Assembly (NCBI GenBank): GCA_949317995.1
Contig: OX439051.1
Span: 44,271,250 to 44,335,249 of the forward strand
Origin: Acholoe squamosa
Taxonomy: Eukaryota > Annelida > Polychaeta > Phyllodocida > Polynoidae
Direction: 5' to 3'
Length of the DNA: 64,000 bases
This document shows, one piece after another, positions 12,338 to 33,467 of the stretch; position 1 is the stretch's first letter; the number at the start of each line of letters is the position of its first letter. The notes beneath the pieces are model-generated. The model did not search any database. It saw only the letters and a list, made by a program, of their open reading frames with translations, and had not been told where the DNA came from. The position numbers were made by a program, and so were the translations under genes.

Positions 12338-12359
12338 GTATTATTAATGTAAGTTTTTA

Positions 12360-12686: not shown

Positions 12687-13053
12687 TGTAATGGTTTGTA
12701 TTACTATTTCGGTGGTTTGGGCCTTACGGATCAGGAAAGAAGGAGTAAGGCGGTAATTCAAGTGTATGCCAACGGAAGTTTATTGCTAAGACACTTAACC
12801 GCTACCGGGAAGATGATGAAGGGGCAGCTAATGTTAATAAATGGTTTTACATGGTCAGAGGCCAGGAGGGCCTCTGACGTAGCGGCTGAGCCCTGGTCTT
12901 TATATACGGACCTTGGTGTTCGTCGCCAGATGTCCCCACAGGCCCGGATCGGTGCTGCCACCTATCCGGAACCTGAGGAACCTTCCAGCGACTGGACTCA
13001 CCCACCACGCCAGATGGTACCCATAACCATGGTTATAATACAATGCCTCTACA
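12687..13053 (-). repeat. solo LTR (367 bp), copy 2
   Basis: Duplicate of 10078-10444 with the same CAAT flanks. This copy borders the host DNA that continues unbroken past 13268, so it marks the original position of the solo LTR. Confidence 0.9.
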
Positions 13054-13736: not shown

Positions 13737-14002
13737 AGCACATCCACCGGTACATTGTCCACCAAGCACTAAGTAGGCCAATTACAGCACATCCACCGGT
13801 ACATTGTCCACCAAGCACTAAGTAGGCCAATTACAGCATATCCACAGGTACATTGTCCACCAAGCACTAAGTAGGCCAATTACAGCACATCCACCGGTAC
13901 ATTGTCCACCAAGCACTAAGTAGGCCAATTACAGCACATCCACCGGTACATTGTCTATCAAGCACTAAGTAGGCCAATTACAGCACATCCACCGGTACAT
14001 TG
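13737..14002 (+). repeat. 49-bp minisatellite, about 5.4 units
   Basis: Units starting AGCACATCCACCGGTACATT repeat every 49 bases at 13737, 13786, 13835, 13884, 13933 and 13982, with few changes. The last unit is cut at 14002 by element B and resumes after it at 31787-31816. Confidence 0.93.
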
Positions 14003-14573
14003 TGTCAATGGACTATTCTATGTATTACAATTATGAACGACATACTCAAACCAGACTGGCCAAGCTACCCCCTAGTTCAAACCAAGGTCAACCTATTTTT
14101 AGCTTGGCAGGGTGAAGAGTTCACACCTGCCCTCCTCCAGTGGGAAATCCCCAGGCTCCCTCCTGTGGATCCCCCACTGGAGAACCCAACTATTTTTAGA
14201 TTCACCTAGCCAATAGGAGCAGCTCACCCCTCCTACCACAGATTGGGACTGAGCAGAACCACCGACTCAGCATATCTGAGTCGCTCCCTATACTAAAAAT
14301 AGAAAGTACAGAAATAGACACGATGTCATCTGGGCTTACTCCTGACTATATAACCTAGTCAGGATCAAGCCTCAGCATCTTATTCTTCTCCAACCTAGAC
14401 CCTACGACACTCAGGTGCCTTGGCTTAGGATATAGCTTGGTCAGACCGGCGAGTACTATATTGTACACTGTATCAGTTACTCATCATGCCAATCTTACAA
14501 TAAAGCTGGATCATCAACTGAATTGTCTGGACTCCTGTTACCTCACTTCATGACATGTAACGAGACATTGACA
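14003..14573 (+). repeat. 5' LTR of element B (571 bp)
   Basis: TGTCAATG...CATTGACA with inverted terminal octamers. TATATAA box at 14347-14353, AATAAA polyadenylation signal at 14499-14504, and an inverted CCAAT-type motif (gccaatagg) about 140 bases before the TATA box. Confidence 0.93.
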
Positions 14574-14574
14574 A

Positions 14575-14587
14575 TGGTGGAGAACCC
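14575..14587 (+). other. putative primer binding site, element B
   Basis: TGGTGGAGAACCC begins one base after the LTR. The TGG matches the complement of a tRNA CCA end, but I cannot name the tRNA. Confidence 0.4.
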
Positions 14588-14625
14588 TATTTGTAACGTC
14601 CCATTGTTTTCACCTCTCATGAGCC

Positions 14626-16347
14626 ATGAATCAAAGTGAGACAACAACCAAAGAGCCATTTACAGAAGATGCCGTTACATCCCCAGGGCTAGACGCGCCC
14701 CCACCAGCAGCAGCAGCAGCAGCAGCAGCACCAGCACCAGCCCCAGACCAGCAGCAGACTGTTCCGTCATCTGACTCGTCACCTGACGCCTTTCTGTTGG
14801 ATCCAATCCTACCACCATCATTTCTAACACCCAAGCCAACACCTGTGAGTAGAAACAAAACTTTTTCATCAACAATTGATGACAATAATACCGGTACACA
14901 GACCAGCACCCCACTCACATCACAGGCACCAGGACTTAATCTGACTTTACCTGGTTTTTCAAGTGCTGAATCCCCAGTCCTAAGACTTGCTGGTCTACCA
15001 GGTGAAACATCATCTACACCTGTAGCTTCACCAAGCCACTTAGACCTAGACTCACACCTAGAGCCCAGGTCACCACGATTACAGGCCGCCTTAGAAAGCA
15101 TACCTACATTACCTCGGCAGCCTGCTACCGGTACAGACACCACCTCACCCCCAGCTGGTTTTACACACCCCAACCCTTCTGAACTCACCTGGGACAGTTA
15201 TATTCCCCCTGACCCTACATTACCACCTGAATCTGATCTCTGGAGACAAAGGATAAGATCAGCTATCAATAGGTGGAGATCAGTAAGGACAAATAGAGCT
15301 CAGGAGGCACCAGCCCCCAACACTCACAGTACACAGTGTGGTGAAAGTCCCTCAGCATTTTTAGGTCGCATTAATAGAATACTAGAGGAGCAGTGGCCTG
15401 ACGCCACCACATCTAGTGACCCCTTCAGGTCATATCTAAATACCCCGACCCCTGAGGCTACCCCAACACCACCAAACACTCTCAATACCCCAAACCTGGA
15501 CACAGGGGCCACCTCTTCAGACTATACACCCCTACCTAGCCCCAGGAGAAGGAGGGCACAGTCTACCTCACCTCTTAGAAGGCAGACACCCCCCTACTAT
15601 AGGGTATTGAGGAGCATAGACTCAGCAGTAGCAGGTGCTATAGGAGCCACCTCCCAGATCTTCAGGAGAAGAGCCACCCCATACTGCACCTCAGAAGACA
15701 GCCTAACCTCTGAGGACGATCCTGAAATCACCTTCCCTCACCTACGCAGAGGCAGGATGGACAGCAGGACACCCACTACACATCCTCCCAGGTATGATCA
15801 GGACGACCTGGCCAGGAATCTGGTAAGAGAATGTACACAGGCAGTCAGTGATTCCTTAAGCAATTTACTGACTGGCCAGATTAATCTCCTATCAGCTGAA
15901 ATCCAAAGGGTAGGCCAGGAGCACACCAGCCATCTAAACAGAGTCAACGACAGGTTAGACAACATGGACACCTGGAGGGCTCAGATGGAGCGCGACTTGA
16001 TACAATCACACAGGAGAGCTGCAGAAGATAATGCAGATGTCCTGAGAAGATCTGAAATGATGGCAGCAGATATCTCTGAGCGCATCAACAGAAACATGGA
16101 TGATGTTAGGAGAGAGATTTGCTCAGTTCATGGCCACAGGCCCCCACTCCAGCCCCCTTCTGCCCACTTCTCACCGGCAAACTTGGGTATACCTCACGCC
16201 TCACAGACCCCCAGTGCACCTACCATGCCAGGTTACCAACATGCTGGCAATGACATAAGGTTAAGCCCACCCAGCGCCTTCCAGAACAACACTCCAGCTG
16301 GTTTATTGGGTGCCACGCCCACCTCACACAGATCGACCCAAGACTAA
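14626..16347 (+). CDS. gag: gag-like ORF 1, element B (573 residues)
   Basis: Starts at an ATG 52 bases after the 5' LTR. It is Pro/Ser/Thr-rich, with an Ala/Gln homopolymer-like tract near residues 25-50, low complexity to about residue 390, then a helical, coiled-coil-like stretch (about residues 400-510). No zinc knuckle. The position is that of Gag matrix or a leader protein. It ends at a TAA (16345-16347), and the same frame continues open into the next ORF (ATG 16375). The two may be one Gag with a stop that is either mutational or read through. I do not recognise a family for the N-terminal part. Confidence 0.7.
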   Translation: MNQSETTTKEPFTEDAVTSPGLDAPPPAAAAAAAAPAPAPDQQQTVPSSDSSPDAFLLDPILPPSFLTPKPTPVSRNKTFSSTIDDNNTGTQTSTPLTSQAPGLNLTLPGFSSAESPVLRLAGLPGETSSTPVASPSHLDLDSHLEPRSPRLQAALESIPTLPRQPATGTDTTSPPAGFTHPNPSELTWDSYIPPDPTLPPESDLWRQRIRSAINRWRSVRTNRAQEAPAPNTHSTQCGESPSAFLGRINRILEEQWPDATTSSDPFRSYLNTPTPEATPTPPNTLNTPNLDTGATSSDYTPLPSPRRRRAQSTSPLRRQTPPYYRVLRSIDSAVAGAIGATSQIFRRRATPYCTSEDSLTSEDDPEITFPHLRRGRMDSRTPTTHPPRYDQDDLARNLVRECTQAVSDSLSNLLTGQINLLSAEIQRVGQEHTSHLNRVNDRLDNMDTWRAQMERDLIQSHRRAAEDNADVLRRSEMMAADISERINRNMDDVRREICSVHGHRPPLQPPSAHFSPANLGIPHASQTPSAPTMPGYQHAGNDIRLSPPSAFQNNTPAGLLGATPTSHRSTQD

Positions 16348-16374
16348 ATTCCTAGTGTCTCCGCTACTCACCAG

Positions 16375-17739
16375 ATGGCAGCTCCAGCCACCACCCCAGT
16401 GCAGGCCAATGCTAACACATTAGGTACAGTGGCAGGTAGTATCTACATCCCTGCTCATGCTCGTACACCCAGCAACATGCCTATATCCATGCAAACCCTG
16501 TATTCTCAAAGCACAGGTGCACATCCAACAGGACACCGCCAGGCATACGACCACTCCACCCCTATGATACCAATGATAGGCCAATCTCACATCGCCAGTG
16601 GTTTGGGTCAAATGACTTTGAGTGATGACAAACTCTCCTCAGCCCAACTCAGCTCTTTTAATAAGCCTGAGACATTTGACAAACCAACTGAGTACAGGTC
16701 TGCCGCCAAATTCATCACAGAATTTAAGTTCTGGATCAGGAATGTATACCCCCGCCACCAACACCTGCACGCCTCCTGCCTATACACCTTCCTAAAGGGC
16801 AGGGCAGCTCAATGGTTCTTCGCCAATATTTTTGAGAAGCCCATCATGTATGACAATGAGGCAGTATATGCAGCCTTCCTGAAGCGTTTTGGCACCCCTG
16901 ACCCTGCAACCATCAGCAAAGGTTATAGAAACAGGACACAACAGCCAGATGAGACAGTGGAACAGTACTTAGAAGACATGACCCTGCTCTTGGCAAACAG
17001 CAACCTGGAGGAGTCAGTTCAAGTGGATTACCTGATTAATGGGCTTAAGCCTCAAATTAAATCAGTAATCCTCCCTGACATGCCCAAAACCATAGCTGAT
17101 GCAGAAAAAATGGCCCTTACACAGGAATTGCGCATAGAAGCACATAAAATGGCCATGGCTGGGACCCAACAAGCAGACCTCTGTGCCATGAACAGTAACA
17201 AAAACAATAGTGGCACACCCAGAAAGGAAAACCAATACTCCAACAATAAAAAGTATGACAGGTACCCCAGTGGCAACTACAACAGGCAGTATGAGACCAG
17301 GACCCAAAACAGCTCCAGCAACCAATCTGACCCCAATTACAGAAGGTTCAGAAGGTCAAGGTCTCAGGATGCTTCTGGAGGAAGAAATAAACCACCTCAG
17401 CAAAGAGCTAGATCACAGAGCGCCTCCAGGAATCCTACCTCCAGGGATGACAACAAAATAGTCATCACAGTGGCCACAGCCCCAGCAAACAATAAACAGG
17501 TTTCCTTTAAAAAGGTCACACATGAGGCTGATATCATAAACAGCAATAGTCCCCCTTACCAGAATAGGAGGACCAGAGACCCCACACCCAGCAGATTCCC
17601 CAGGAATAACAATGAAAGTGATCCGACGGAACCTGAGGGCAACGCTGACCTACATAACATTGATGAAGACAATCATGATCACAACGATGGTGATGAAGAC
17701 TTCATTGATGAAGACACAGACTATGATGACGAAGAATAG
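16375..17739 (+). CDS. gag: gag capsid ORF, element B (454 residues)
   Basis: Residues about 100-250 match the pattern of retrotransposon gag capsid domains: F-I-T-E-F-K-F-W-I, then F-L-K-G-R-A-A-Q-W-F-F, F-L-K-R-F-G, and a Y-L-I-N-G-L-K-P block. It would form the particle shell. The C-terminal third is rich in Arg, Ser, Asn and Gln, with no CCHC zinc knuckle, so RNA binding is probably through basic residues; an acidic tail follows. Same frame as ORF 1 before it and pol after it. The frame closes at TAG 17737-17739, and pol continues in frame 48 bases later, an arrangement compatible with stop readthrough. Confidence 0.82.
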   Translation: MAAPATTPVQANANTLGTVAGSIYIPAHARTPSNMPISMQTLYSQSTGAHPTGHRQAYDHSTPMIPMIGQSHIASGLGQMTLSDDKLSSAQLSSFNKPETFDKPTEYRSAAKFITEFKFWIRNVYPRHQHLHASCLYTFLKGRAAQWFFANIFEKPIMYDNEAVYAAFLKRFGTPDPATISKGYRNRTQQPDETVEQYLEDMTLLLANSNLEESVQVDYLINGLKPQIKSVILPDMPKTIADAEKMALTQELRIEAHKMAMAGTQQADLCAMNSNKNNSGTPRKENQYSNNKKYDRYPSGNYNRQYETRTQNSSSNQSDPNYRRFRRSRSQDASGGRNKPPQQRARSQSASRNPTSRDDNKIVITVATAPANNKQVSFKKVTHEADIINSNSPPYQNRRTRDPTPSRFPRNNNESDPTEPEGNADLHNIDEDNHDHNDGDEDFIDEDTDYDDEE

Positions 17740-19467
17740 GTTTCAGGGGAAGGATGCAAAGCACCAAACCACCCCGCCCCCACCACAGTGGATATGAAAT
17801 CTGGAACGCCCCCCGCCAGCCACCACCCAACTGATATTCAAAGTGATGCAGAAATCAACTCCCTACAGCGGCCAAAAATGGATTTTTCCAAGGACAACAA
17901 CCTGGATTTTGGTGACAGCTCCTCTTCAGACAGCGAAGACTGTTACGAGGACAGCAGTAGCAGAGTGGCACGGCTTCAACTGAGAATCAAGTCAGATAAG
18001 TATGGGCAGCAAGGTAAGGTCTCTCGCATTAATACCGAGTTAACTAAAGGTGCAGTCTTTGTCGACATAAATGACCACCCCTATAGAGCTTTGGTAGACT
18101 CTGGAGCATCCTTATCTTTTATCAGTCAAAAAATGGCAGATAAGGTAATACACACCCCAAACTTTAAACATGGAAGACGCTCACGTATGAATGTCCTCCT
18201 AGCAGACAGATCCACAGTACAGGTAAACCATGCCATTACACTCAGCTTCCTAATTGAAGGCAAAGAATTTGTTACAAGATTACATGTTGTACCAAAATTA
18301 AATCACCCCATCATTCTTGGAGTAAACTTCATGACCAAGTACAAAGCTAAGCTTAGTTTTGGCCCCAAGCTTCCCTCCATAAACACAATCAGGCCTGCTG
18401 AAAATATCACAATACCACCAAACTCTGAAACCACTCTCAATGCTATTGTCAATGGTTCAGAAAATTTAAATAAATTGACAGGCATCACTGAAAATATCAA
18501 ACCAGCCCTACCTTTCTTGATTAAGCACGCCTTGGTTAAACCCAAGACTAGTGCAAAATTAATACCGGTAACTGTGGCAAATCCAAATGATTTTCCTTTG
18601 CATTTAAAGAAGAAACACACACCTCTAGGTATTTTCAAACCTTTCAACATGAAAAAGGCTATACCAATAGGCCCCCTGGACACTCATCATTCACTGAACC
18701 ATGTCTCACCTGCCAGCGAGCTTTTTCCAATAAATTGTGGTGAAGACCCCCTGGAGCAATTTCCCAAGGGTAATGAACCTCTACAATACAAAATTTGTGA
18801 GCAGCTCACTGAGACTCAAAAAACGCAGGTACGTAAAATTGTTGAACAGAATAGGCAGGCTTTTGTGATTGATGACAGCGCCATTGGCTCCAACACTGAG
18901 AATGAGGTCAAGATGGAGTTAATTCCAGATTTCAAGCCCTGCAACAGGCCCTCATACAGAATGTCCCCACATAAAGAAATTTTCCAAAAAGAGCTCCTAA
19001 ATAAACATTTAAAACAAGGAATCATTGAGGAATGTACCAAGCCCTGTGAATGGAATTCACCAGCCTTCTTGGTACCCAAACCTCAGGGAGACAGATCTGT
19101 AGCCTCTGGCTGGAGAGTGGTAGTGGATTACAGATGGGTTAATCAAAACCTCAAATCTTTTTCCTACCAATTCCCCAGAGCAGACGACCTCATGCAACAA
19201 GTTGGCAGAACAGGTGCAAAATATTTCTCAAAATTAGATGTGTATAGTGCCTACCATCAAATTCCCCTGGCGGAAGAATCTAGGCCTATTACCACCTTTT
19301 CAGCCAATGGAACCAGATATATGGCCAAAGTTCTCCCAATGGGACTCAAAACCTCAGGTTTGTCTTTCATGAATGTCATGGAGCAATTGCTCATGAAATG
19401 CAAGTACAGAAATGCAGTAGCATATGTTGACGATGTGGCTATTTATAGCCCCACCTGGGGGACCTAG
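17740..19467 (+). CDS. pol: pol: protease and N-terminal RT, element B
   Basis: In the same frame as gag. The protease motif V-D-S-G-A-S (about 18091-18110) is followed by I-L-G-V-N-F (about 18315-18332), as in retropepsins. RT follows: W-R-V-V-V-D-Y-R-W-V-N (about 19110-19142), S-K-L-D-V-Y-S-A-Y-H-Q-I (about 19228-19262), and the catalytic Y-V-D-D (about 19426-19437). YVDD is more typical of retroviruses than the YLDD of the other elements here. The frame ends at a TAG (19465-19467) because of a one-base slip in a run of five G at about 19457-19461; RT homology resumes one frame away. That slip disables this copy unless it is a sequence error. Confidence 0.85.
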   Translation, partial: VSGEGCKAPNHPAPTTVDMKSGTPPASHHPTDIQSDAEINSLQRPKMDFSKDNNLDFGDSSSSDSEDCYEDSSSRVARLQLRIKSDKYGQQGKVSRINTELTKGAVFVDINDHPYRALVDSGASLSFISQKMADKVIHTPNFKHGRRSRMNVLLADRSTVQVNHAITLSFLIEGKEFVTRLHVVPKLNHPIILGVNFMTKYKAKLSFGPKLPSINTIRPAENITIPPNSETTLNAIVNGSENLNKLTGITENIKPALPFLIKHALVKPKTSAKLIPVTVANPNDFPLHLKKKHTPLGIFKPFNMKKAIPIGPLDTHHSLNHVSPASELFPINCGEDPLEQFPKGNEPLQYKICEQLTETQKTQVRKIVEQNRQAFVIDDSAIGSNTENEVKMELIPDFKPCNRPSYRMSPHKEIFQKELLNKHLKQGIIEECTKPCEWNSPAFLVPKPQGDRSVASGWRVVVDYRWVNQNLKSFSYQFPRADDLMQQVGRTGAKYFSKLDVYSAYHQIPLAEESRPITTFSANGTRYMAKVLPMGLKTSGLSFMNVMEQLLMKCKYRNAVAYVDDVAIYSPTWGT

Positions 19468-20939
19468 ATGAGGTACTCAAACTTTTCATCAAAGGAAATA
19501 TCAAACTGAAATCAGAAAAATGTGAATTTGGCACAACCAAGATGGATTTCTTGGGATTTTCTCTAGATCAACACGGTGTGTCACCTTCCCCAGACAAAAT
19601 CTGGCCAGTCAAAACCTTCCCTCCACCTAAAAACATCCACGACCTTAGATGTTTCAATGGCATGGCACAATTCTACAAAAGGTTTATTAAAGGTTTTGCC
19701 CACATAATGGCACCTCTATATGAAGCCACCAAAGGGACCTTTAAATGGACCACTAGTTGCCAGCGCGCCTTTGAGAAAATCAAAGCTTCAATTTGCACTG
19801 AAGCTGTCCTCAAATTCCCTGACTACAGCAAGCCATTTGTCATATTTACAGACTCAAGCAACTATAGCTTGGGAGCTGTGATCACACAGGTAGATGAAAA
19901 TGGTTTCTATAGACCAATTGAATTTGCAGGTAGAGGTTTGACACCACAGGAGACGAGATATGGAATAACAGACAAAGAACTTCTAGGCATCGTCTTTGCA
20001 GTTAAAAAGTTCCACCATTATGTGGATGGAGCCCACTTCAAAGTGTACTCAGACCACACTGCCCTGGTCTCCCTTTTTAATAAAAAAGAGAACATTACTA
20101 ATGGGAGACTAGCCAGGTGGGTAGACACAGTCATGTCTTACGACTTTGAGGTGAAGTATCTGCAAGGCAGAGCAAATTTTGTGGCAGATTTCCTATCCAG
20201 GAGATCCTACCCACCCAGCTCTGATGACCCAGTGCCAATTAGATCCCAGGGGCAAATTATTCTTCCCCCCAAGAAATTAACTTTCTCTGATATCTCCATG
20301 ACCAAAGTCTTTAGGTCCAACGAGCCAGTACCCAAGAACCCAATCCAGATGGGACCCCCTAGATCAATTCTAAAAGGAGGTAAAATCTGGGGAAGTACAG
20401 GCAAACCACCCAAGGGTGTAATTGCAAAGAAAAATAGCTCTGAAAGAAATCACTTAGCTTCACTAGCAGCGCCAACGGAGCTGTGCGTCTTGACCAGGGC
20501 ACAGTCACAGAACTCCCAGGAAGACACACCCCCAGCCCCCAGCCAATCACGGCCCAGAACCGCTGTAAACAAACAAGGCCGACCCACAAAGGTCAAGCCA
20601 GCTGGTTCAAGGCCAAGAGGTCGACCTCCCAAGTCTAGGTCACCCAGGGTATCAGTTAAGGCAGCCAATGCCAGACGCGCCAAGCTGTCACACAAAGTGT
20701 TACCTTTGGCTGAGAGGGCCATCACCAAAATTTGCAAGCACCCCTCACTCACACCCTCTAGAGAAGTATTGATAAAGGCACAAAAAGAAGATCTTTTTGC
20801 TTCATCAATGCTAAATTACATTCAGGATGGAAAGTTGCCACCAGATCAAGGCTTGACAAATCAGATTTTAGCCAATCATGATCAGTTCATCATACTAGAT
20901 GAGATACTTTTCAGAATCACCGACACAGTCATTGGGTAA
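19461..20939 (+). CDS. pol: pol: RT C-terminus and RNase H, element B
   Basis: Continues RT (F-L-G-F-S ... F-N-G-M-A-Q-F-Y-K-R-F, about 19545-19685) and RNase H (F-T-D-S-S-N-Y-S-L-G-A-V, about 19847-19882; K-E-L-L-G-I-V; D-H-T-A-L-V, about 20053-20070). A long basic linker of about 200 residues follows and contains an AT-hook-like R-P-R-G-R-P-P-K (about 20610-20633). The frame ends at 20939 by a second small frameshift at about 20930, and integrase carries on in the next frame. Confidence 0.85.
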   Translation, partial: DLDEVLKLFIKGNIKLKSEKCEFGTTKMDFLGFSLDQHGVSPSPDKIWPVKTFPPPKNIHDLRCFNGMAQFYKRFIKGFAHIMAPLYEATKGTFKWTTSCQRAFEKIKASICTEAVLKFPDYSKPFVIFTDSSNYSLGAVITQVDENGFYRPIEFAGRGLTPQETRYGITDKELLGIVFAVKKFHHYVDGAHFKVYSDHTALVSLFNKKENITNGRLARWVDTVMSYDFEVKYLQGRANFVADFLSRRSYPPSSDDPVPIRSQGQIILPPKKLTFSDISMTKVFRSNEPVPKNPIQMGPPRSILKGGKIWGSTGKPPKGVIAKKNSSERNHLASLAAPTELCVLTRAQSQNSQEDTPPAPSQSRPRTAVNKQGRPTKVKPAGSRPRGRPPKSRSPRVSVKAANARRAKLSHKVLPLAERAITKICKHPSLTPSREVLIKAQKEDLFASSMLNYIQDGKLPPDQGLTNQILANHDQFIILDEILFRITDTVIG

Positions 20940-22254
20940 ATCCCTAGACCCCTCCCTTCAAATTGTGATTCCAGAAAAGTGGGCAGAATCATTAATTGAA
21001 TCCACACACTGCTCCCCATTAGGAGGGCACTTGGGTTCAATGAAAACATATGCAGCTATCAGGTCACGGTACTATTGGCGCTCAATGTTCAAACAGGTGT
21101 TTGATTACTGTGGCACATGTCACACATGCCTTACCACCAAAAAGAGGCCGAAAAACCTAAAATCACCAATGACACTCCGTGAACCTGTACTCACAGCCTA
21201 CTCTCACGTCACCATGGACACAATAGGACCATTTAACAAGGCCGTTAATGGATCCCACCACATACATGTGGTCACAGATCATGCCACTAGACATGTAACA
21301 GCATGGTGCACAGAAGACAACACAAGCGCTGAGGTAGCCCTTGGTTTCTTTCAGAGAGTGATCTGCATCCATGGCACTCCCTCAGTTTTAAACACTGACA
21401 ATGCTAAACAATACACTTCAAAATTCTTTGCCCTCTTCTGCAATAAATTTGGTATTAAGCATGTCACAGGGAGCGCACACTGGTCCAGATCTCAAGGTCT
21501 ATGTGAACGCCAACACCAGACAATAGAATCATCCCTCAGAGCCTTTGTGTCTAAATCACAAAAACATTGGTCAACCTTCCTCCAAGCTGTGATTTTTAGC
21601 ATGAATAACACAGTCTCCAGTGCCTTGGGTTACTCACCCAATCTCCTGGTATTTGGAAAACAAACCCATCTACCCACAGAGGCTGCATTAGCACTGATCA
21701 CAGCAACAGAAGATGTTGACCCGGTACAAAAAGAAAATGTAGCCACTCATTTATTAAATCTCAGGGATGAAATTCAAATGAAGGCAGCAGAAAACATGAT
21801 AAAGGCCCACAAAAAGATGAAGGCCAAGCATGACGCCTCTGCAGAGGTAGCCACCTTCAATACTGGTCAGTTGGTGTACTTACATATACCCAACCTCCTG
21901 GTGAAACACACCACCAAAAAGCTGCAACCCACATACTCTGGCCCTTACATCATAGTTAAGATGACCTCATCAGTAACTGCAATTTTAAAAAGGTTGCAGG
22001 ATGGACATGTCTTTAAAAAGGCAGTACATGTGTCCAGGCTGAGAAGACCAATTACTAGAGCCAGCGCCAAAGCCATCATAAAAAGGCTCCAGACTGGTCC
22101 TGTACAAACTCTCTTCGACCCTGATTCAAGCATAATTGCTGATACCAATACACCAGCTCCTCCCCTCAAGAAAAAGAGAGGAAGGCCGGCAAAGAAAGGT
22201 ATCATCACCTTTGCCCCATCACTCAAGAAAAGGGCAAAGAAAAGGAAGCAATGA
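20899..22254 (+). CDS. pol: pol: integrase, element B
   Basis: HHCC zinc domain (H-C-S-P-L-G-G-H ... C-G-T-C-H-T-C, about 21007-21130), DDE core with M-D-T-I-G-P (about 21214), N-T-D-N-A-K-Q-Y (about 21391) and L-C-E-R-Q-H-Q (about 21500), then a GPY/F block (Y-S-G-P-Y-I-I-V-K, about 21934-21960). The C-terminus is very basic and holds an AT-hook, K-K-R-G-R-P-A-K-K (about 22170-22196), which would bind the minor groove of AT-rich DNA. All catalytic residues are present. The real start is a fusion with the upstream RNase H frame, and the frame shift lies at about 20930. Confidence 0.88.
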   Translation: MRYFSESPTQSLGKSLDPSLQIVIPEKWAESLIESTHCSPLGGHLGSMKTYAAIRSRYYWRSMFKQVFDYCGTCHTCLTTKKRPKNLKSPMTLREPVLTAYSHVTMDTIGPFNKAVNGSHHIHVVTDHATRHVTAWCTEDNTSAEVALGFFQRVICIHGTPSVLNTDNAKQYTSKFFALFCNKFGIKHVTGSAHWSRSQGLCERQHQTIESSLRAFVSKSQKHWSTFLQAVIFSMNNTVSSALGYSPNLLVFGKQTHLPTEAALALITATEDVDPVQKENVATHLLNLRDEIQMKAAENMIKAHKKMKAKHDASAEVATFNTGQLVYLHIPNLLVKHTTKKLQPTYSGPYIIVKMTSSVTAILKRLQDGHVFKKAVHVSRLRRPITRASAKAIIKRLQTGPVQTLFDPDSSIIADTNTPAPPLKKKRGRPAKKGIITFAPSLKKRAKKRKQ

Positions 22255-23414
22255 AATTTCGTTGAAATCACATATAGAGAAAGCACAAATACCCCCCCCC
22301 CCACACACAGAAACACCTCTCAACCCCGACCCCCCCCCCCCATACACACACACACACCAACACTCACCACGGCTGTTGGCCCACACTCAGGCCACGTGCC
22401 ACACCCCTGCTATCTACAGGGACACCCGCACTCACACACACCTAGGCCCAATTACCCACCCTACACATGTGACCACCGACCTCAAAGCCCCGACCTGATG
22501 ATAACAAATTCCCTCAGCGGCACCCCATATCATCAGGTACCCCCTTTTTCTCTTCTTTGAAGTTTTACTAACACTCACCTCTTAACTTATCACCTCGCAC
22601 GCCTTTTGTTTTTATATTTATCCTTTTATTATATATATCTCGTTTTTCTTAAACCAATTTTATTTTTCCTTTAAATTATTTATCAAAGGCCCAATGAGCC
22701 CAATTATACACTGTTTGACCCCAGGATCAAACCCCTCAACCAGCCGCACTGTCAACCACTCAAGGGCAGCATATGCACACAATTTTGTCCAGCTATGGTT
22801 AGGTAGCCACATAAATTGCCCACGGCAGCAGTGTATCCTCTGGTACATGTTTTTCATTTAAAGAAAAATCATGCATACACCGGCTAGATAGCTTTTCAGG
22901 GCTCCTATTTACCAGTTGACACGCCTATTGTAGGTGCTTGTATTCCCCCATGCCCACCCATGTTTGTACCTCTGTTTAGCACGAGGGCGCTGATACAGGT
23001 AGAACCCCATATTTATGAGCTGTCAATTAAGAGCAGCTCGGTACCCCAGGCATAATGTTTCTCACACACATGTATTCATGGTCAGCAAATTTTTAGACAT
23101 GTGAACTGACCTCTCCACTCCCGCCTTATCTCAAACCTGACCCCAGGAATTCCAATTATAAGCTTATTACCGGGGTATAGGTTCCAAATTTGCATAAGGG
23201 ACATATGCCCAAACTGCAGCCATCCAATAGAATCAGGCCCAGCCTTTTTAGGGCAAGACATACCACTATAGGGATATCCAAAAGTGAGAAATAGCCACCC
23301 TCACGGATGGGTTTATAAGCCTTAGCCCACCCCCACCTTAGCCACTCCACAATATCACCCAGATCACACCATATCAGCGTTCCAAGTGAACAAGTGCCTG
23401 GACCAGGGATCACC
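22255..23414 (+). other. element B region between integrase and the start exon
   Basis: 1.16 kb with no supported gene. Contains C homopolymers and CA repeats (about 22289-22350), then AT-rich sequence. Near the right end there is a CCAAT motif (about 23222), a TTATAA box-like string (about 23310) and the splice-rich leader of the env region. Confidence 0.5.
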
Positions 23415-23443
23415 ATGGCGTTTACGACGTGCAATAAGCCCAG
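23415..23443 (+). CDS. putative common start exon with Kozak ATG, element B
   Basis: ATG in the context caccATGg, nine full codons plus two bases, then the donor AG|GTAGGC (23443/23444). The phase (two bases of a codon left) fits in frame with three downstream acceptors: 23704/23705 (accessory exon), 24471/24472 (env-like exon) and 29248/29249 (cysteine-rich exon). For env the conceptual junction places a basic segment before the hydrophobic core of a signal peptide, as expected. This is an inference from splice signals and phase only. Confidence 0.5.
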
Positions 23444-23704
23444 GTAGGCCTGTCCTATGTGCCCATTAACCAGTACTAGTTTTATCAGTCGTTCTTATAT
23501 GGTCAATGACATAACCTGATGTCATGCTACCCAGGTACCTCTATTAACCAATGGCAGTGTGAGTACTAGAATACCTGTAAAAAGTTTGATTGTTCACTTC
23601 GCGCCCCATACCTGACTCAATTGTTTGTGCCCCTATACTCACCCCTCTGTATGGTTTACAGCTTATTCAAAAAGTAGCTTACTCAAATTAAAACTTCTCT
23701 TCAG

Positions 23705-24179
23705 TGAAAATTGGACAATCTACGACCTCCTGGGACCGGTTGGATTATTGAAAGAAGGAAGAGACATTTTTGAGTTTAGGCAGCTCATTGTACACCACCA
23801 AAATTTGGTCTTCAATATGACTTCTAAACATTTAGCATATTACCTGAATGACCCCGCAGTCCACAAGGAACTGCCGCTATCAAACCCGTTGGTCTCTACC
23901 CTCATCAAGAGGATGTTACCTTATGTCTGTTGCGACATGCCAACTTCTCCAGATTGGAGCACCTTCAAACCTAAAACAGCCGCTTATATAGCCTTGCTGT
24001 GCGCGCGCACACTTCTGGTCTCTGACCAGCCTTTAAAAGACCTTCCCAGATACTTTAGTGGGACGGGCAGAGCTTTGGTCATCAGGGACGCCATAGAATT
24101 AGTAGTTCAGAAAGCCTTTCTTGAGACCCACATGTGGTCCAATAACCTGTCTAAACTCCCACCTACAGCCCATTGCTGA
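23705..24179 (+). CDS. accessory exon of unknown function, element B (about 158 codons)
   Basis: Open frame closing at TGA 24177-24179, without an early ATG. A good acceptor (cttctcttcAG) ends at 23704, and its phase matches the start exon 23415-23443. The encoded protein has mixed helical character, two adjacent Cys (about 23924), and no signal peptide or obvious membrane span. I do not recognise it. Its place between pol and env resembles accessory genes of complex retroviruses. An alternative is initiation at the internal ATG near 23818. Confidence 0.5.
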
Positions 24180-24471
24180 AATAAATCTGACAGGGTAAGC
24201 TACAAAATTTTTACTCTCACAACCCCCCATTTAGTCTTAGCCTACTAATACCCAAGGTCCAGTCACATCTCCCTCATACCCCCCTCACAACCTCGCCAAG
24301 CAACCACCCCCCACTGTTTAAACAAACCACACTACACTCACCTAGGTGTGCCTACAGTCCCCTTTCACAGGAGGACACCTCCCACACAATCGACCATAAA
24401 ATCCCCCACCACATAACCCAATTGCTGATATGACTCACAAACTCAATCCCCCCATCACATCTCTTTTACAG
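24180..24471 (+). other. intron-like spacer before env, element B
   Basis: 292 bases of C/A-rich sequence, no gene. It ends in tctcttttacAG (24470-24471), a strong 3' splice site for the env-like exon. Confidence 0.5.
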
Positions 24472-27205
24472 AGCCGCAGTACCTCTAATAGTGCTGTGTA
24501 TCCTCTTCAACCTCACCAATGGATCACAGGACAAGGAGTTACCACAAAGGATCGTATTCAGACCAAATTATGGAGCACTGTTTACCCAGTTACCACAGCC
24601 CCTAATCTCAAATTTCATGGACTACCCCCTAGTTTTCAGTTTGAACATCTCCCTGTCCCCCAACCTCCAAAGACCTGATAGAGTGTCACCCCTACTTAAG
24701 CCCGGCACCCCACCATACATTACCCAAACAGCCAACAATCTGGACACATTGATTAGCACCCTATTTGACAAAACCCAAAATTCTTTAGACCTTTTGATTA
24801 ATTTAATTTCCAACCCCAGGAACCGTCAGGCCAGAAATGCCCCAGGACAAATCATTGGCGATATTCTCAGAGCAACCCTAGGCCTGGGAACCCAACCTGA
24901 AATTGACCTTCTAAACGCTGACATTTCTGACATTGACAAAAGATTGGCCACTAAAATGCATGTGGTTGAATTAGCCACCCATTTTCTATTAAATATCTCA
25001 GAATACAATTACAATTCACTAAACATCCTATCTGAATTCCAAAATGATACTGACGACGCACTGTCCCTACTGGCCCAAAATTTAAAAACATTAAATTCCA
25101 ACTTTTCAAACATTATTTTAAATTTAGAATCCCAAGCCAGACAGGACACCTTTTATTCCATGTTATTTTCTGCAGCAAACTCACAAATTGAGTCACTAAT
25201 CAACCTTCAGGAAGATCTAGATATTTTATTAAGTGCCATAAACAGCTTAATGGAGGGCGAGCTCCCTCCCACCTTAATTACCCATGACACCCTCAGGTCA
25301 GGCCTAAACAACCTCTCCAGCGCCTTGAGTAGCGCCCACCAAGGCATATCAATCCTTGACATACCCATAGGTCACTACTATAAAAGGCGAGTAAGTGCCC
25401 AGTGGAGTGGCCCCTCCACCCTCTTCATCTCACTACCCATACCCATAGGACTAGGGGATAATGTTTACACCCTATTCAGAACTGAAACCTTTCCAGTCCC
25501 CTTTGACACATCAGATGTTAACTCTACAGGTTACACCCTGGTACAGCCCCTACCCCCCTACATAGCCATGTCTCCCAGCCACGCCCATTTCATGGAGCTT
25601 CAGCAGGCAGACTTAGACCTATGTACACAAGACACCTTCATCAGCTGTAACCTACCCCTCCCCCTGCTATCACCTCTACACCCCACCTGCACTCTGTCCG
25701 TACTCCTGGACCTACCTGATGCAGTGCACCACACCTGCAGTTTCACTGCACACATGGCTGCACCCATACCCAACCTAATCAAACCCATTTCTAGGTCAAC
25801 ATATCTCATGATTACTGGCAAGTCGCCATCTTACTTACAGTGTCACAATGCGGGACAAATACCCATGATCAATGCAGCCTATTCAGTCATGTCAGTACCA
25901 TGCCTATGCTCTATTAAGAATGCAGGCATGGTTATGATCAATTCAAATATGACCTGCGTACAAAATATAACACTGGAACCCATGGCCATGAGCCCCATAA
26001 ACTTACCACTATGGCGACACTTTGGTTCACCTCCAGCTAACATATCAGGCGTTACCATGACAACCGTGCCACGGTCCCTGGAACTACCTAACTTCCAGCG
26101 TCTCAAATCCTTACACAACCAAAAAATAGTACCCTTAATTAAAAGCGTACTCACCCTCAGACGAGCAGCCAAAGGTCTGTCAGATGAGTCTTCTCTCCTG
26201 TCAGCAAGTTCACTAACACACCTTGGTTACCATTTGGAATATTCGATCTGGTTCCACTTAGTGACCCCTCTGATTGCCATCCTCTGTTGTGCAATGACAT
26301 GCCAGATCCAGATGCGCGTGTCACGCCTGGCTCAGTTGGTGACAGTCCATCTAGCACTCAACACACCCAGAATGGCGGATGCAGCGACTTGGCAGAATCT
26401 TAAGGATCTGATCAACAAGGCCAACAACAACTGGCCCTCGACACCCACACAACAGCCCGTGGAGCAAAGCCTGGAATTTATCCAGACTCCTGGACGCTAC
26501 GATGTGATGTGGGCAATCGGCTCCGTCCTGATCATCTTGTACCTGGCCCGCCTCTTCATCTCCAGATGCTGCAGACACTGGCCACACTGTAGGCAAGACG
26601 AATCCGATGGCTTGCCCCAGTTTGTCCTCCGCATCCACTCCCAGGGCAGAACATACGAGTTTGTTGTGGGAACCATGATTTTCGGCTCCAACCTATGGCC
26701 ACCCTTCATTAAGGCCCCTAAAATTGGAAAGCCCCGCCTCACTATGCCCTTTGGCCGTCACCTGGATCTCAACTGGAAGGCCAAGGTCAGCTTCATAATT
26801 GGCGCCCAATTGAGAGTGGTGCAGCTCGAGAGATACCCTCGCTGCCCTCTTTTCTGGAGACTACCCCTCTACAGAATCCTAAATGGGAGGCCACATGTTA
26901 TGACCCTGGTCATCAAATCCAAAACCCAGCCAGATTTCCAGCTGACCCCAGGATATGAGACGATCGAAGACACCAACATCCCAGAGATCCCCAGGATCCA
27001 GGCCCCCAGCAGCCCCAGCCCCAGGCCCAGGGGCACCCAAAGACCCAGCGGCCAGGTGGAGCTAACTAAATTCACACCAAAGGACTACCAACCCCCTAAG
27101 GACATGTACGTGTTCGATCCCACCCTGGAGGATATATCTACCAAATTCCCACCAGAAATCGGTATGTTTATTTTTCCGTTCAAATCCTTAAGGCCCGTGT
27201 CTTGA
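24472..27205 (+). CDS. env: env-like fusion glycoprotein (F-type), element B, about 910 codons
   Basis: Open from the acceptor at 24471 to TGA 27203-27205. The first residues are hydrophobic, as the end of a signal peptide cut by an intron, and the first Met is not near the start. Counted from 24491, a basic R-N-R-Q-A-R site at residues ~110-115 (furin-like) is followed by a Gly/Ile/Leu fusion-peptide-like stretch and long heptad-type helices, then Cys-rich loops with N-glycosylation sites. A membrane span lies at about residues 583-605 and a second hydrophobic segment at about 671-690, with a long basic/Pro-rich tail. This layout recalls baculovirus F/errantivirus envelopes. A GTATGT donor at 27161 could splice away the last codons. 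Confidence 0.72.
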
Positions 27206-28476
27206 TTTATGTGGGGATACCCACATGTCTTCGTAGCCAAAATTGTTCTACAGCCACCGGCCACCCCTATTTTCTCATATAATGGAACCGACCAACCATA
27301 CCACAGCACAAGACCGGATAGCCACACACAGGATAACACATCCTATGTGGGGATACCCCACCCCCCCCCTACCCCACAGATAACCCAGCCCGGCGTTGCC
27401 AAGCCAAGCCTCATCTAATCCCAGACTCCCATCCCATACCCCGTCAGTCTTATCAGCAAAACAAACATAGCCCCATTAAAACAAACATACCGCCACATAC
27501 CTATACAATAGCAGCCCCACTGACCCAATTTTGAATGTTGTTAGCGGATCACAGACGTCAAGTGCTGACGCTGCGTCTGGGCATGTTCGCGCCAAACGCA
27601 GCGTCATGACGTCGCCGAGCGTCCCCAGTACCGAAACCAGTCACCAAATGCAAATTTTTCGCACGTGATCACGCTCACATGACAATATGCATAACCAAAT
27701 AAACGTCCACACGTGGTGTGCACGCCAATACAATAACATATGCACGTGTTCATATTGACAATAGACTTGCAACATACCCCGACTTACCACTCCCCGATCA
27801 CTATACCAATCTAATTCAGATGACACCGGCACCCAATTTACAAGCCCCAAAATTCATAACAAAACTCTAAACTGGTGGTGGACTTTCTATATTATTAGCA
27901 AATATCACAATTTAATCAGGTTCTCCGGCGCCAATCAGATTAAAATCACGAGGAATCAAGCATATCATCAAAGTCATTTATCACAGGTTGATCCGAGCCC
28001 TCCTGGCCACTGATGCCGCAATCACAATAACAAATCACAGAAAAATCACAGTCAATCACATAGCGCATTAGGCCTTGCCACCTTCCGGATCTAGTCCTTT
28101 TCTCCCACTCCTCGTCTACATCCTTAGAAGATGCCCAAGCGATGGTCCACCCTGAATCAAAAACAAACAAAAACCTGGCCTGTAAATTCGTACAGCCAAC
28201 GAGAATTTCAGCGAAACCGAAAAATTTTTTTTTTCTTTTACTTTAAAACACTATAATACCACCCACCTCCTCCACCTCCATCTGAACCGGGCCACCCATC
28301 TACATCCGCACGCTACAGGGCCCACTTGATCCACCGGCGGGCCCCTCACCTGGTCCCCGGCATGGACGGCAAAGGTACGGCACCCACCCGATCACCACGT
28401 AGATGGTACGGATCCTAGACAAAAACCAGAAATCCCTTTTAAACATACCTCAATAGTTTTTTTTTGCAACAGCTAA
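27206..28476 (+). promoter_or_regulatory. element B 3' region with CRE/E-box cluster and palindrome
   Basis: No gene seen in 1.27 kb. It holds a 15-bp inverted repeat with one mismatch (27566-27580 and 27592-27606; arms TGACGCTGCGT...), ACGTCA/GACGTC motifs on both sides, and three CACGTG E-boxes (27662-27667, 27710-27715, 27743-27748). The density is far above background, so it may be an enhancer or internal promoter. Confidence 0.45.
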
Positions 28477-28845
28477 ATGACAAATCGAATCGCTGCAAGC
28501 CTAGAACTCCACTCACCTCACTGGTTCAACAACCCGGATCCTGAGGCAAACAGCCCCATCGGCCAAAACACAGACGGTAACTCCGATCTCCATGTTTTCT
28601 CTTCTGGCCGGCGCCCAAAATTTCCAAAGCAACCAAAATCTCCGCAGTCTCTGACGCCAAAAACGCCGTCTTCCCCTTTTATACTAGGCCTAGCCGCGGG
28701 AACCTTAAGCTCATTTTTCGGCCCAATTTTCGAACCTCAAAAATCCAAACCTTTCCAGCCGCTTTCCAAAATTCTTGAACCCAAACCAAACCCCCCCCAA
28801 CCTAAAATACAAAGTAAACCTCCCCAGCCCCCGTCCCAACCCTGA
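28477..28845 (+). CDS. possible accessory ORF, element B (122 residues)
   Basis: ATG four bases after a strong acceptor-like T-run and AG (28471-28472), open for 122 codons. Pro/Lys-rich, with one hydrophobic Gly-rich segment in the middle (about 28678-28730, F-I-L-G-L-A-A-G-T-L) and a Pro-Gln-rich tail. No known family. Low-complexity composition makes the call uncertain. Confidence 0.3.
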   Translation: MTNRIAASLELHSPHWFNNPDPEANSPIGQNTDGNSDLHVFSSGRRPKFPKQPKSPQSLTPKTPSSPFILGLAAGTLSSFFGPIFEPQKSKPFQPLSKILEPKPNPPQPKIQSKPPQPPSQP

Positions 28846-29248
28846 AGGGTTGGTGCAAGTCTACATCTCTCATTTACCGTAAACTCATAGGCCTTAACGT
28901 AAATCCCATACATTAACCAAACGCTGTACAGACGCTGGCGCAGTGGTGCCTCTTGGTGTTATTTTTCCGAACTAAAATCCGAGACGGAGCAGCGTACGGC
29001 CCAGCGACCGTCCGCTGGCGCCGCCAGGTGTGTAGCATTGAAATTAACATAGAGTCCTTGGATACGGCCTCCCGCCTAGCTCCAAACCAAAACCTTTGCT
29101 TCTGTATGGTACTCCTAAGTGTCGACTTGACTAAAATTTAGCACCATGGGTTAATCTTAGTATTATTGCGGACCTGATTGTGAACCATACAACCCTGACA
29201 CAGTCTCTAATGCTTTGTTTTCTCTGCTCTATGTTGTTTTCTGAACAG
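28846..29248 (+). other. spacer before the cysteine-rich exon, element B
   Basis: About 400 bases with no supported gene. The end (gctttgttttctctgctcta and ttgttttctgaacAG, 29212-29248) is a long pyrimidine-rich 3' splice site. Confidence 0.5.
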
Positions 29249-29888
29249 GTCAACGCGAGATGACTGGGACCAGTCCAACACCGACGAAGCCGGCCCTGAA
29301 AGACCAGAAACCTCCTCAGCCGAAAAATACCCAGGTCAGGAAACCAGTTACCCTCAATACTCAGGAGGAACGAACCCTAATGGCGGCAGCGGAAATACAC
29401 GCAACAGAAGGGCCGACACCCCCATCCCAGAGGCCCGCTACAACTGGAGGAGCAACCCCCGCACCCCAGCAAGGCCAAAATGCCTAATAGCAGGGTGCAG
29501 ACTGTGCTCCAGCACCCCTGAGGGTTTTGTCTGCCCCTGCTCCTACACAGGCATCAAGTTCAGACCCCTAGTATCCCAGAGACACTACACCACCACCACC
29601 TTCACCAATAGCACCTCAAACCTAGATCACCAGGACAACAAAAATGACAATAGCTCCGAGTCTGAAGACTCTGATTCTTCAACCTCTACTTCTGCCGAAC
29701 CAGGCAACCTGGCCTCGGTGGAAAAAGATTTTAGAGACATAAATTTAGACCCCAGCACTCCTATAAAAAGAGCTGCACTCAGAAGGAAGTGGGCAAGAGG
29801 CAGATTCTACATAAGAACCCCCAGACCCCACCCTAACCTACCCCCCTCCAGTGTCAGTGCTGGAGACAGCAAACCGTGGAAACATTAA
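29249..29888 (+). CDS. cysteine-rich accessory exon, element B (213 codons, no ATG)
   Basis: The frame with codons from 29250 is open to TAA 29886-29888 and lacks an early ATG, so it needs splicing. The acceptor ends at 29248, and the phase agrees with the start exon 23415-23443. The protein has an acidic Ser/Pro/Asn-rich N-terminus, a compact Cys cluster (C, C, C, C, C within ~22 residues, about 29480-29550), an acidic Ser-Glu-Asp patch and a basic Arg-rich C-terminus. That is a plausible transactivator or RNA-binding layout, but no family is recognised. A second frame (29260-29487) is also open and would be entered by splicing from the env donor at 27161. Confidence 0.5.
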
Positions 29889-31215
29889 TATTCAGAAAAT
29901 CATGTAAACCCCTCCGAATTCAAAGTACAAATCAGTGCATTCTTACCTTCCTTTCCATATTTATCGATTGTAGGGACACAATTTAAAACCCCCCCCCCAA
30001 GAACCACAGTACCGCTTTCATTTGTATGTGATCTTTAATTCGATCTGCAAGGTTTAAACGATTTCTCCACGATTGTAAAATAAAACCAAACTCATCTTGT
30101 ACCATCTTAACCAATAAACCACCATACATTTACTTGTAAAAACTCTGTGTAAGCTTAGAGTTGACCTGGCTGGCAGATCAACCCTAGCTTTCAGGTGCCA
30201 CAGAGCCCCCATCTCTCTTTTCAAGCCCAACCATGTCATTGTATTTATGGGTTTTAGCCTCAGTAGAAAACCATGTGTGAAAAATGTTTTGAAATATTTA
30301 TTGTCTCAAGAAGTTGAACATCCAGAGCCTGTAATTTCCACTACTAAAATTCTACAGAATGCCACCTCGGCAAGCCTTTCAACCCCAAAAGTAACAAGTG
30401 ACAACTACCTCGGGCCAAATGCCCCCTTTTCCAAAAATCCAAAATTTTTTTTTTTAGAAATTTCACATTTTTACCAACCTCTCGGCTCTGGGTGAACAGT
30501 TTCTCCTTGCATGCAAGTTTGTGTTTTCAATTATTTTATGTACAAGCTAGTCCAAAAGAGATCTTCGGTCACATCTCACTGTATGTCACTGATGATCGTC
30601 ACCTCGCCCATATAAGTAGCTTAGCAGTGATACCACTACTGCCCAGCTTATTTGTTAAAACCTTGTATGTAAGGACAGCATGTACATATTTTCACCTTAT
30701 TTAAAACCTCTTTTAAACAATCTGTGCTTTTATACCGCTGATGTATTTGTAATTTTATACCGTATATTTTTATACTGGATATAGAAAATGTATTTTGACA
30801 AATGTATGATGCACAGGACAGATCTAGTCATGTCCCTACCACCCTGCTCAGCCAGAGCAGTCTTAGTATCCTTAGCATTTATTTTTGTGGTGCTCAAGCC
30901 AGATTATTTTGAGTTAGTTCATAGAGTTTGCCTCAATTGAGAGGATGCAAGTTCAAGTAGTTTTAGCTAAGAAAAATATCAGTTGTTATCCAAGCTCCTA
31001 TGTTTTGTACCAACTACTACCGGTAGAACCAAATATTGTACCCCCTTTTCACAAGAAACTTGGTAATATCAATCTTTACCCAGCGCTGAACATCTTTTCA
31101 GCCCCCTATTTCACATTTTATACTTGAGCATGTCAATGGACTTGATATAGACTCTCATTCCTTATAATTATACTCCCTTTAACCTCATGCAGAGATGAGT
31201 GGGAATGTGGGGATA
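29889..31215 (+). other. element B 3' untranslated region with polypurine tract
   Basis: 1.33 kb, AT-rich, no supported gene, with a C homopolymer at about 29989. The last ~24 bases (31192-31215) are purine-rich (gagatgagtgggaatgtggg) and abut the 3' LTR, as a polypurine tract should. Confidence 0.55.
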
Positions 31216-31786
31216 TGTCAATTGACTATTCTATGTATTACAATTATGAACGACATACTCAAACCAGACTGGCCAAGCTACCCCCTAGTTCAAACCAAGG
31301 TCAACCTATTTTTAGCTTGGCAGGGTGAAGAGTTCACACCTGCCCTCCTCCAGTGGGAAATCCCCAGGCTCCCTCCTGTGGATCCCCCACTGGAGAACCC
31401 AACTATTTTTAGATTCACCTAGCCAATAGGAGCAGCTCACCCCTCCTACCACAGATTGGGACTGAGCAGAACCACCGACTCAGCATATTTGAGTCGCTCC
31501 CTATACTAAAAATAGAAAGTACAGAAATAGACACGACGTCATCTGGGCTTGCTCCTGACTATATAACCTAGTCAGGATCAAGCCTCAGCATCTTATTCTT
31601 CTCCAACCTAGACCCTACGACACTCAGGTGCCTTGGCTTAGGATATAGCTTGGTCAGACCGGCGAGTACTATATTGTACACTGTATCAGTTACTCATCAT
31701 GCCAATCTTACAATAAAGCTGGATCATCAACTGAATTGTCTGGACTCCTGTTACCTCACTTCATGACATGTAACGAGACATTGACA
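31216..31786 (+). repeat. 3' LTR of element B (571 bp)
   Basis: Same length as the 5' LTR, with four substitutions seen by eye. TG...CA ends, TATA box and AATAAA are kept. Followed by the TSD ATTG and the interrupted minisatellite. Confidence 0.93.
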
Positions 31787-33467
31787 ATTGTCCACCAAGC
31801 ACTAAGTAGGCCAATTTGTGGAAGGATAAGCACACACACACACAAAATCCATTCTTGAGCAATTCCAGTTATTCAATTTTTAACAATTCTTGTGGTACTG
31901 ATATCTGAAGCAATCAAACAATTATTACAAATGATTCAAACTACACAAATGCCTTGACTTACTGCGAGATCTAAGGCTGAATAAACATCTATGGTGTAGC
32001 CGTATGCTTTGAAACGTCCCTACTACTTACTACTTAGTACTAGGAAACCCCGACTATATTCACGTTTTCATGTAACATGTTGTGCCACCATGGCAGTGGC
32101 TGGAGGTCTCAAAGAAGAATTGCTTCCGCACTATACTTTAATGTACGAAGATGTGCGACTACTACTACTCGAACATGTTCATTTTCAGAAATTTGTTGCT
32201 GATGGGTTAGAGACATTCTTGCTACACTACATAAATAAATCCTGGTTATAATGTGGATTGACCATGAAAATTTTGAGCTTGGGTCAAAAATGTAAACTCA
32301 CCACAGGCTTTTACACTATATTACCAGTAGATTTTACTAAACCTAAATCAGCACACAATACACACAATAAGTTACTCTGATGTCATATGTTTCATTTCAA
32401 TAGACATTCAGCAGCATGCACACCTGTTTTCAGATTATTCCCAGTGTTTATGACTGATTTATGGACCATTCAGTGTTCCAGCATTATTCACTTCTGATGA
32501 CAATCGTATATGACTTCCGGTTTTCTGCGGGATTTCCCTCACTGAGACCTACTATTATACCCATTTCAACAATGACACTTTACAAACACTTGTTTTTTCA
32601 ACTGTGGGGTGTCCTGAGTACAGCCCCCAAGTTTAAAGGCTGTGGCATTATTGAAAGTGTGAAAACTTCAGTCATTTATATGTCCTCTCTCAGTAAGGCT
32701 TATATTGCACAGTTACGCCTATTTCCCCTGCACCTTGTTATGAAGGTCCTCGGGCCACTTTTGATAGAAATATGCACTGCATTGTCATCCCACTCACCAG
32801 GAATGTTGAGAAAGTATCACTGAGTACTGAAGGTTTCAGTATGTACAAATAGTCAGAAAACCTCTGGCCATCCTGTATTTTTCAGAATGATGAGTTTAAA
32901 ATCAAGAAATTGCCAAAAAGGGTGTGGAATTCTACAAAACTGTTCAATTTATGATTTTTTGTACAGCCTTATCTATTTTTTATCAGTGAGAGCTAGTTGG
33001 TTTTTGTATCTATTATGTATCAGCAAGCTGCGAAAAAAAATTAGATTTTTTGGATGCTTCTTTATATTTTTCATCTCAGCTTATGCGTTTTTTGGTTCAC
33101 CGACAGAATAGAAGGTTTCAGGACCGAGAACTTGTTGGTACCTCCAACTGGGTAAAACTGTCTTAAACACTTAGAATCAGATAAGAATGATTGTAAATGT
33201 GAACATTCACACCATGCAGCATATATTAAAGCATGTAAAAATTAGTTTTGATTTATTTTTATTTTCTATAATTTTTTTCAGAATAAAGACAATATATTTC
33301 ACATTTTTTAGCAATTTACTTGTTCTCAGTGAATTTATTTGTTGATAAGGTATCTCAAAGCTTGGATTCATTTCCTTCAAGATAATCTCATTAAATTATT
33401 AGCAAGTGTTATGCATTGGGATATGATTTTAGTGCGCGAATGATGGGCTAAATAAATGGTATGATAT
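31787..33467. other. host intergenic or intronic DNA between elements B and 1
   Basis: Starts with the rest of the minisatellite (to 31816) and a short CA repeat (about 31831-31846), then AT-rich sequence. Short open frames (32009-32251, 32461-32823) show no recognisable domain. I support no gene here. Confidence 0.5.

Follow-up and report, generated by a model that had tools for sequence, protein, structure and literature searches.

A start exon that may be shared by three genes downstream of pol in a Gypsy-type provirus of the annelid Acholoe squamosa

Introduction

The insect errantiviruses, such as gypsy and ZAM (Metaviridae), have a Gypsy-type pol followed by env, and a short upstream exon, joined by splicing, completes the env exon, according to the available parts of PMC4276936 and PMC12992720. 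Cer1 (CERV) of Caenorhabditis elegans, another Gypsy-type member of the Metaviridae, yields a spliced five-exon product with one exon in a different frame, as given in the accessible text of PMC10309623. Here we describe element B, a long terminal repeat (LTR) provirus in a stretch of 64,000 nucleotides from the annelid Acholoe squamosa (GenBank assembly GCA_949317995.1, contig OX439051.1, positions 44,271,250 to 44,335,249 of the forward strand; hereafter the window). On the sequence evidence, element B is best read as a Gypsy-type provirus with an expression programme like that of complex retroviruses.

In the reading that we favour, the region after pol would form one multi-exon unit. Exon E1 would carry the only early ATG and leave two bases, a phase that three downstream acceptors would take. 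Joining of E1 to E2 would give the product of open reading frame 1 (ORF1), joining to E3 an env-like protein with a signal peptide, and joining to E4 the product of ORF3, so the protein made would depend on which exon joins E1. That these exons are spliced in some way is very probable, and E1 is probably the start of at least one gene. As an overall account, the shared start exon feeding E2, E3, and E4 appears reasonably likely; whether E1 starts all three genes is evenly balanced. The features are listed in Table 1.

Table 1. Window positions of element B, its predicted exons, and associated signals
Feature	Position	Strand	Basis or remark
Element B, LTR provirus	14003..31786	+	LTR pair and target duplication
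gag-pol pieces	14626..22254	+	interrupted in this copy by two in-frame stops and by two frame changes
End of alternative (leader) start exon: ATG 14619, five codons and two bases, donor 14635	14619..14635	+	overlaps gag ATG 14626
Candidate TATA box of internal promoter, TTTATAAG	23312..23319	+	single such octamer on the plus strand of 22255-31215
E1, coding part: ATG, nine codons, two bases, donor GTAGGC	23415..23443	+	sequence and conservation
E2: ORF1 (stop 24177-24179), then strong donor AGG/GTAAGC	23705..24194	+	acceptor, codon pattern, donor score and conservation
E3: env-like exon to donor 27161, one base over	24472..27161	+	genomic frame continues to 27205
E4 start, open in two frames: ORF3 (stop 29886-29888 after 212 codons) and a second one (stop 29485-29487 after 78 codons)	29249..29888	+	
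Candidate antisense exon 1: ATG 28593, donor after 28517	28517..28593	-	77 bases, ends AG/GTGAGT
Candidate antisense exon 2: open to stop 28302-28300, or spliced at 28350	28300..28414	-	acceptor at 28414

Predicted start exon and splice phases

An earlier note on this DNA had proposed a single ATG exon for three alternative genes. Its description of E1 (ATG at 23415, nine codons and AG, then GTAGGC) was correct in coordinates, phase, and codon count. Downstream, frames run open from stop to stop at 23616-24179, 24434-27205, and 29211-29888. The AGs before 23705, 24472, and 29249 leave one base ahead of the first full codon, so that each frame needs two leading bases, as had been claimed. The reported shortage of early start codons was likewise borne out: the first in-frame methionine lies at 23817 (after 37 codons) in the first frame and at 24617 (after 48) in the second, and the ORF3 frame contains none anywhere. 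The signal-peptide layout suggested for the env-like frame also held, as its most hydrophobic 15-residue stretch is the first one after the acceptor. This hydrophobic start fits a signal peptide whose methionine would sit in another exon.

Splice sites were ranked by approximate scores: the E1 donor (23443) came third and the E2 donor (after 24194) second among 348 GT, and the acceptors at 29249, 24472, and 23705 came 1st, 6th, and 145th among 489 AG. The chance of 1/27 that the earlier note had given for a coincidental match of three phases proved too generous, as the first frame has an AG with a better score, 23662, in the wrong phase. Therefore, the case for a shared exon rests on the comparison of copies.

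Conservation of the predicted splice sites in other copies

The host genome (1.48 Gb, 63 contigs) was searched for related copies. A COX1 gene on its contig C63 is read with the invertebrate mitochondrial code, which points to a protostome. The family of the window is termed B1, and an older subfamily, reached via a pattern at the E1 donor, is termed B2; most long B2 matches are 71-79% identical to B1 (21-29% diverged). For B2, 24 loci were picked by a search pattern that lies in the TATA island and includes a base absent from B1; L022/L023 correspond to L009/L010, which are probably copies of one duplicated locus, and L026 corresponds to L015. Retention counts refer to blast-aligned B2 loci, unless the multiple alignment of 18 loci is named.

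E1, its donor, and the three acceptors were mostly kept in B2, in position as well as in phase. The E1 ATG was retained in 23/24 loci (lost in L026) and the E1 donor GT in 20 of the 23 aligned (lost in L019, L022, and L023). One locus, L027, has a 9-base frame-keeping deletion within E1, and L037 ends inside E1. The acceptor AG was present in 20/21 loci at 23705 and in 12/13 at 24472, and AG/G at 29249 could be read in 9 of the 12 B2 loci aligned there and in all 7 other B1 copies. The donor GT was kept in 13/16 loci after E2 (24195) and in 4/4 after E3 (27162). B2 carries 12 additional bases, a multiple of three, right after 23705, and the intron ahead of 24472 is rich in insertions and deletions between the subfamilies, with acceptor and phase unchanged. 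Eight B1 copies, window included, have the exact TATA box and acceptor 24472; acceptor 23705 is exact in seven, and E1 with its donor is also exact in seven, the eighth carrying GTAAGC. Genome-wide, 217 sites match the end of E1 followed by GTA, and four sites (L009/L010, L055, L063) carry other bases at the donor.

Two kinds of candidates were rejected. The AG at 23662, which follows the stop upstream of the first frame and precedes the start of coding there, scores higher than 23705, but is in the wrong phase and less conserved (14/21 B2 loci vs. 20/21). The pattern sites L009/L010, L055, and L063, together with L070 and L071 from the leader exon described below, had been considered as splice junctions and are donor variants instead; L011-L013 are unrelated. 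Separately, a donor-like site, AGT/GTGAGT, lies at 23559 inside intron 1, with its GT kept in 22/23 B2 loci. Another observation concerns L015/L026/L017 (G000:C4, ~82.45 Mb), a B2 copy that joins 14851 to 23009, with gag-pol deleted and the post-pol region kept.

Coding signal at the borders of the frames

Substitution fractions between B1 and B2 are given per codon position (1/2/3), with counts that pool related copies. They were.259/.115/.383 in ORF1,.184/.081/.428 in the middle of env, and.195/.181/.434 in ORF3, the last being a wobble excess. A coding-like pattern was already present before the first in-frame methionine, at.24/.07/.26 in E2 and.25/.17/.42 in E3. The open frame directly upstream of 23705 was without it (.087/.211/.191). 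This supports a start of codon-type substitution at both testable acceptors (23705 and 24472), ahead of the first in-frame methionine; the start of ORF3 is unalignable by blastn. At the level of sites, periodicity was found in env (p = 2e-75), ORF1 (p = 2e-8), and ORF3 (p = 2e-5), and the sense-side introns and spacers tested gave p values of 0.18 or more.

Several observations weigh against a shared start exon. Acceptor 23705 scores poorly, and by score the phases match in two of the three frames. In the 18-locus multiple alignment, this acceptor was kept in 15 loci and lost in three (two deletions, one substitution), and acceptor 24472 was kept in 13; of the five other loci (5/18), one has a deletion there and four lack matching sequence. 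Mean background retention in B2 was 0.59 for AG (101 sites) and 0.56 for GT (97 sites), and 50% of single AG and 44% of single GT sites reached 0.85. Because about half of the background sites are thus also well kept, it is the set of sites that counts, and no single site is a proof. ORF3 was open for at least 98 codons in six of the nine B2 loci with a readable acceptor and broken within 42 codons in the other three (42, 39, and 7). Finally, patterns at the E1 donor and the leader donor, a method that finds only copies with an intact exon end, detected no spliced genomic copies.

The weak acceptor 23705 and the match of two phases by score would suit an explanation without any shared exon, in which the frames are reached otherwise (by non-AUG starts or other exons) or are silent and the phase match is due to chance. 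We consider this improbable in view of the codon-type constraint upstream of the first methionines, of acceptor 24472, which is kept although the preceding intron is full of insertions and deletions, and of ORF3, which lacks methionine, yet shows the wobble excess.

A possible leader start exon and a candidate internal promoter

A second candidate for the start exon lies near the 5' LTR. Its ATG (14619) is out of frame with gag, and its donor (14635), ten bases into gag, has the best score in 14370-15400. It leaves the same phase as E1, two bases, and its fit to the same acceptors is a further point against an exclusive role of E1. The inferred alternative is that the 5' LTR promoter and this leader exon feed the env-like exon, perhaps together with ORF1 and ORF3, and that E1 is minor or serves small ORFs only. 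Such an arrangement has a parallel in the Drosophila ZAM and Beagle subclades, where the exon spliced to env is short, codes for a peptide, and lies upstream of gag (available parts of PMC12992720). In the single B2 copy that aligns here, the leader stretch shows no difference, and the genome contains 214 matches to it, two of which (L070, L071) differ in a base at the donor; this conservation may stem from gag coding and reverse-transcription signals. The leader exon would leave the conserved TATA island, ATG exon, and donor at 23312-23449 unexplained, and we regard it as a rather unlikely replacement for E1; E1, the leader exon, or both could serve E2-E4. The gag ATG itself (14626) with donor 14635 was rejected, as the single base that it leaves is out of phase with all three frames.

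Under the shared use of E1 that we favour, E1 would be transcribed from an internal TATA promoter, with the RNA start near 23343. The octamer TTTATAAG lies ~100 bases 5' of the E1 ATG, which is the first ATG past 23340, with 14 other ATGs between 22563 and 23340. In a comparison of the window with L009, which had been picked up by way of the exon rather than the TATA box, few stretches are as well conserved as the TATA island; L015 and L055, also picked up via the exon, retain it too. On the other side, the 24 B2 loci could not be counted for TATA conservation, their selection pattern having contained the TATA box, and TATA-like motifs occur 47 times in the 64 kb. From its position and conservation, an internal promoter driving E1 seems fairly likely.

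A conserved non-coding block (22743-23019, bins up to 93%) lies between pol and the TATA island and is perhaps an enhancer or RNA element. Another non-coding block, at 27449-27916, is conserved across the two subfamilies, most of its 35-bp bins standing at ~80-90%, and has no codon periodicity. It contains motifs that we take to resemble E2F, CRE, and CACGTG sites.

Env-like protein and its possible tail

The env-like protein has a signal-like start, two hydrophobic segments, and an R-x-x-R site. No relative was found at E <= 0.001 for the env-like frame among the 7,999 candidates sharing most words, nor for ORF1 among 36 candidates. Nothing of note matched among the PDB sequences, and the env-like frame had no Pfam match to an F protein, the baculovirus protein to which errantivirus env is related. 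Homology to the torovirus spike (Pfam E 6.5e-4 to 9.5e-4, 18 bits vs. a cut-off of 35) was rejected as a weak match in a helical-looking part.

Constraint of the env type extends to 27161 and then stops, with fractions of.22/.26/.43 before and.19/.39/.16 after this point (4 loci or few more). The end of E3 reads TCG/GTATGT in B1, and the B2 donor is GTAGGT in 3/4 loci and GTAGAT in 1/4. The base left by donor 27161 would open the second frame of E4. The length of this frame has a probability of 0.086 in a Markov model of E4, and length alone is weak evidence. Among the 14 downstream B2 loci, the nine with a readable acceptor have a second frame of 40 to 117 open codons, and in five of them its length is exactly 40. 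Within the first 86 bases of E4 in these nine loci, variable sites are, by plain count, most frequent at the third position of the second frame (16/29) and least frequent at its second position (8/29), a pattern that is the reverse of that expected from ORF3 alone. Among seven other B1 copies, the second frame has at least 78 codons in five and ORF3 at least 208 codons in five. These data moderately support a joining of the E3 donor to E4 in another frame, and a tail of the env-like protein encoded there is slightly favoured.

Candidate antisense gene

A small antisense gene may lie between E3 and E4. Its putative TATA box, TATAAAAG, is located at 28683-28676 on the minus strand, and TATAA is kept in 11/11 aligned B2 loci. 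A counterpart of exon 1 with 74, 77, or 80 bases was found in 8/14 downstream loci by a pattern with start and donor, one of them with an internal stop. In the two exons together, wobble sites vary more often than others (26/61 vs. 22/123, p = 6e-4); singly, the exons gave p = 0.12 and 0.011. This evidence is tempered by a like lean in the antisense intron (14/34 vs. 15/66, p = 0.11 in a three-class test) and by the small number of loci that align across the region. Our confidence, lowered slightly given this intron control, is just above even for the gene. A third exon (28151-27946) was rejected: its phase fits, but it has no codon periodicity (p = 0.6) and many insertions and deletions. A polyadenylation-like signal is located at 27916.

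The provirus and its surroundings

The LTRs of element B (14003-14573 and 31216-31786) are flanked by the target duplication ATTG at 13999-14002 and 31787-31790. This copy is young, because its LTRs differ at just 4 positions over 573 aligned bp. Pfam domains of gag-pol follow the order RVP-type, RVT_1, RT_RNaseH, Integrase_H2C2, and rve, and a Retrotrans_gag match scores just under the cut-off. The order protease, reverse transcriptase, RNase H, and integrase with Gypsy-type domains agrees with Metaviridae (Ty3/Gypsy), as do the TG..CA LTR ends (TGTCAA..TTGACA) with a duplication in the 4-6 bp range (ATTG). Troyka elements have CG..CG ends and a 3-bp duplication, as far as the available text of PMC12440569 goes; element B, with TG..CA ends and 4 bp, differs from them.

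Within the window, relatives of element B cover the gag-pol part only. Further Gypsy-type elements lie on the minus strand at 33468-64000, their kinship with element B being in pol only. Large, near-identical tandem duplications occupy 7579-13268 and 3782-5902 of the window (98.7% identity over 3.1 kb; 99.6% over 1.06 kb).

Discussion

The idea of one ATG exon for three alternative genes found partial support, in its phase fit and in the B2 conservation. It did not foresee the candidate internal promoter, the E3 donor, the second E4 frame, the candidate antisense gene, or the competing leader exon. The accompanying statement that such splicing would be unusual for a Gypsy-type element holds for the layout as a whole; within the family, splicing is already known for env and for a product of several exons (PMC12992720 and PMC10309623, in their accessible parts). 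A layout with two promoters, multiple spliced genes, one exon used in two frames, and an antisense gene is usually regarded as a speciality of complex vertebrate retroviruses. We tentatively suggest, at somewhat less than even confidence, that an invertebrate Gypsy-type provirus independently built such a programme, with an internal promoter, a shared ATG exon choosing among three proteins, a two-frame last exon, and a TATA-driven spliced antisense gene. If true, this layout arose separately in Metaviridae. No title among the open-access papers listed announced a Gypsy-type element of an animal that has both an internal promoter and a shared start exon, which is weak evidence of novelty.

Compared with the errantiviruses, element B adds two ORFs, an internal start exon, a possible two-frame last exon, and a candidate antisense gene, and no sequence match of its env-like frame to a known env was found. 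In Cer1, exons 1-3 share the gag frame, and the accessible account (PMC10309623) has no counterpart of a common internal ATG exon from which one of three genes is chosen. Foamy viruses have a second, internal promoter besides the LTR (available parts of PMC7828637), which in element B is a sequence candidate; they belong to Retroviridae, make pol from a separate spliced RNA, and are otherwise unlike element B in layout. An antisense gene between pol and the 3' LTR is described for the plant element Retand (accessible text of PMC11963269), and a gene with its own promoter for the plant element Grande, as indicated by a title cited in the same paper. The antisense gene HBZ of human T-cell leukemia virus type 1 is driven from the 3' LTR by a promoter that lacks a TATA box (PMC10186651, in the part available). 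Unlike Retand, Grande, and HBZ, element B combines a candidate TATA promoter and splice signals inside the element with an animal host.
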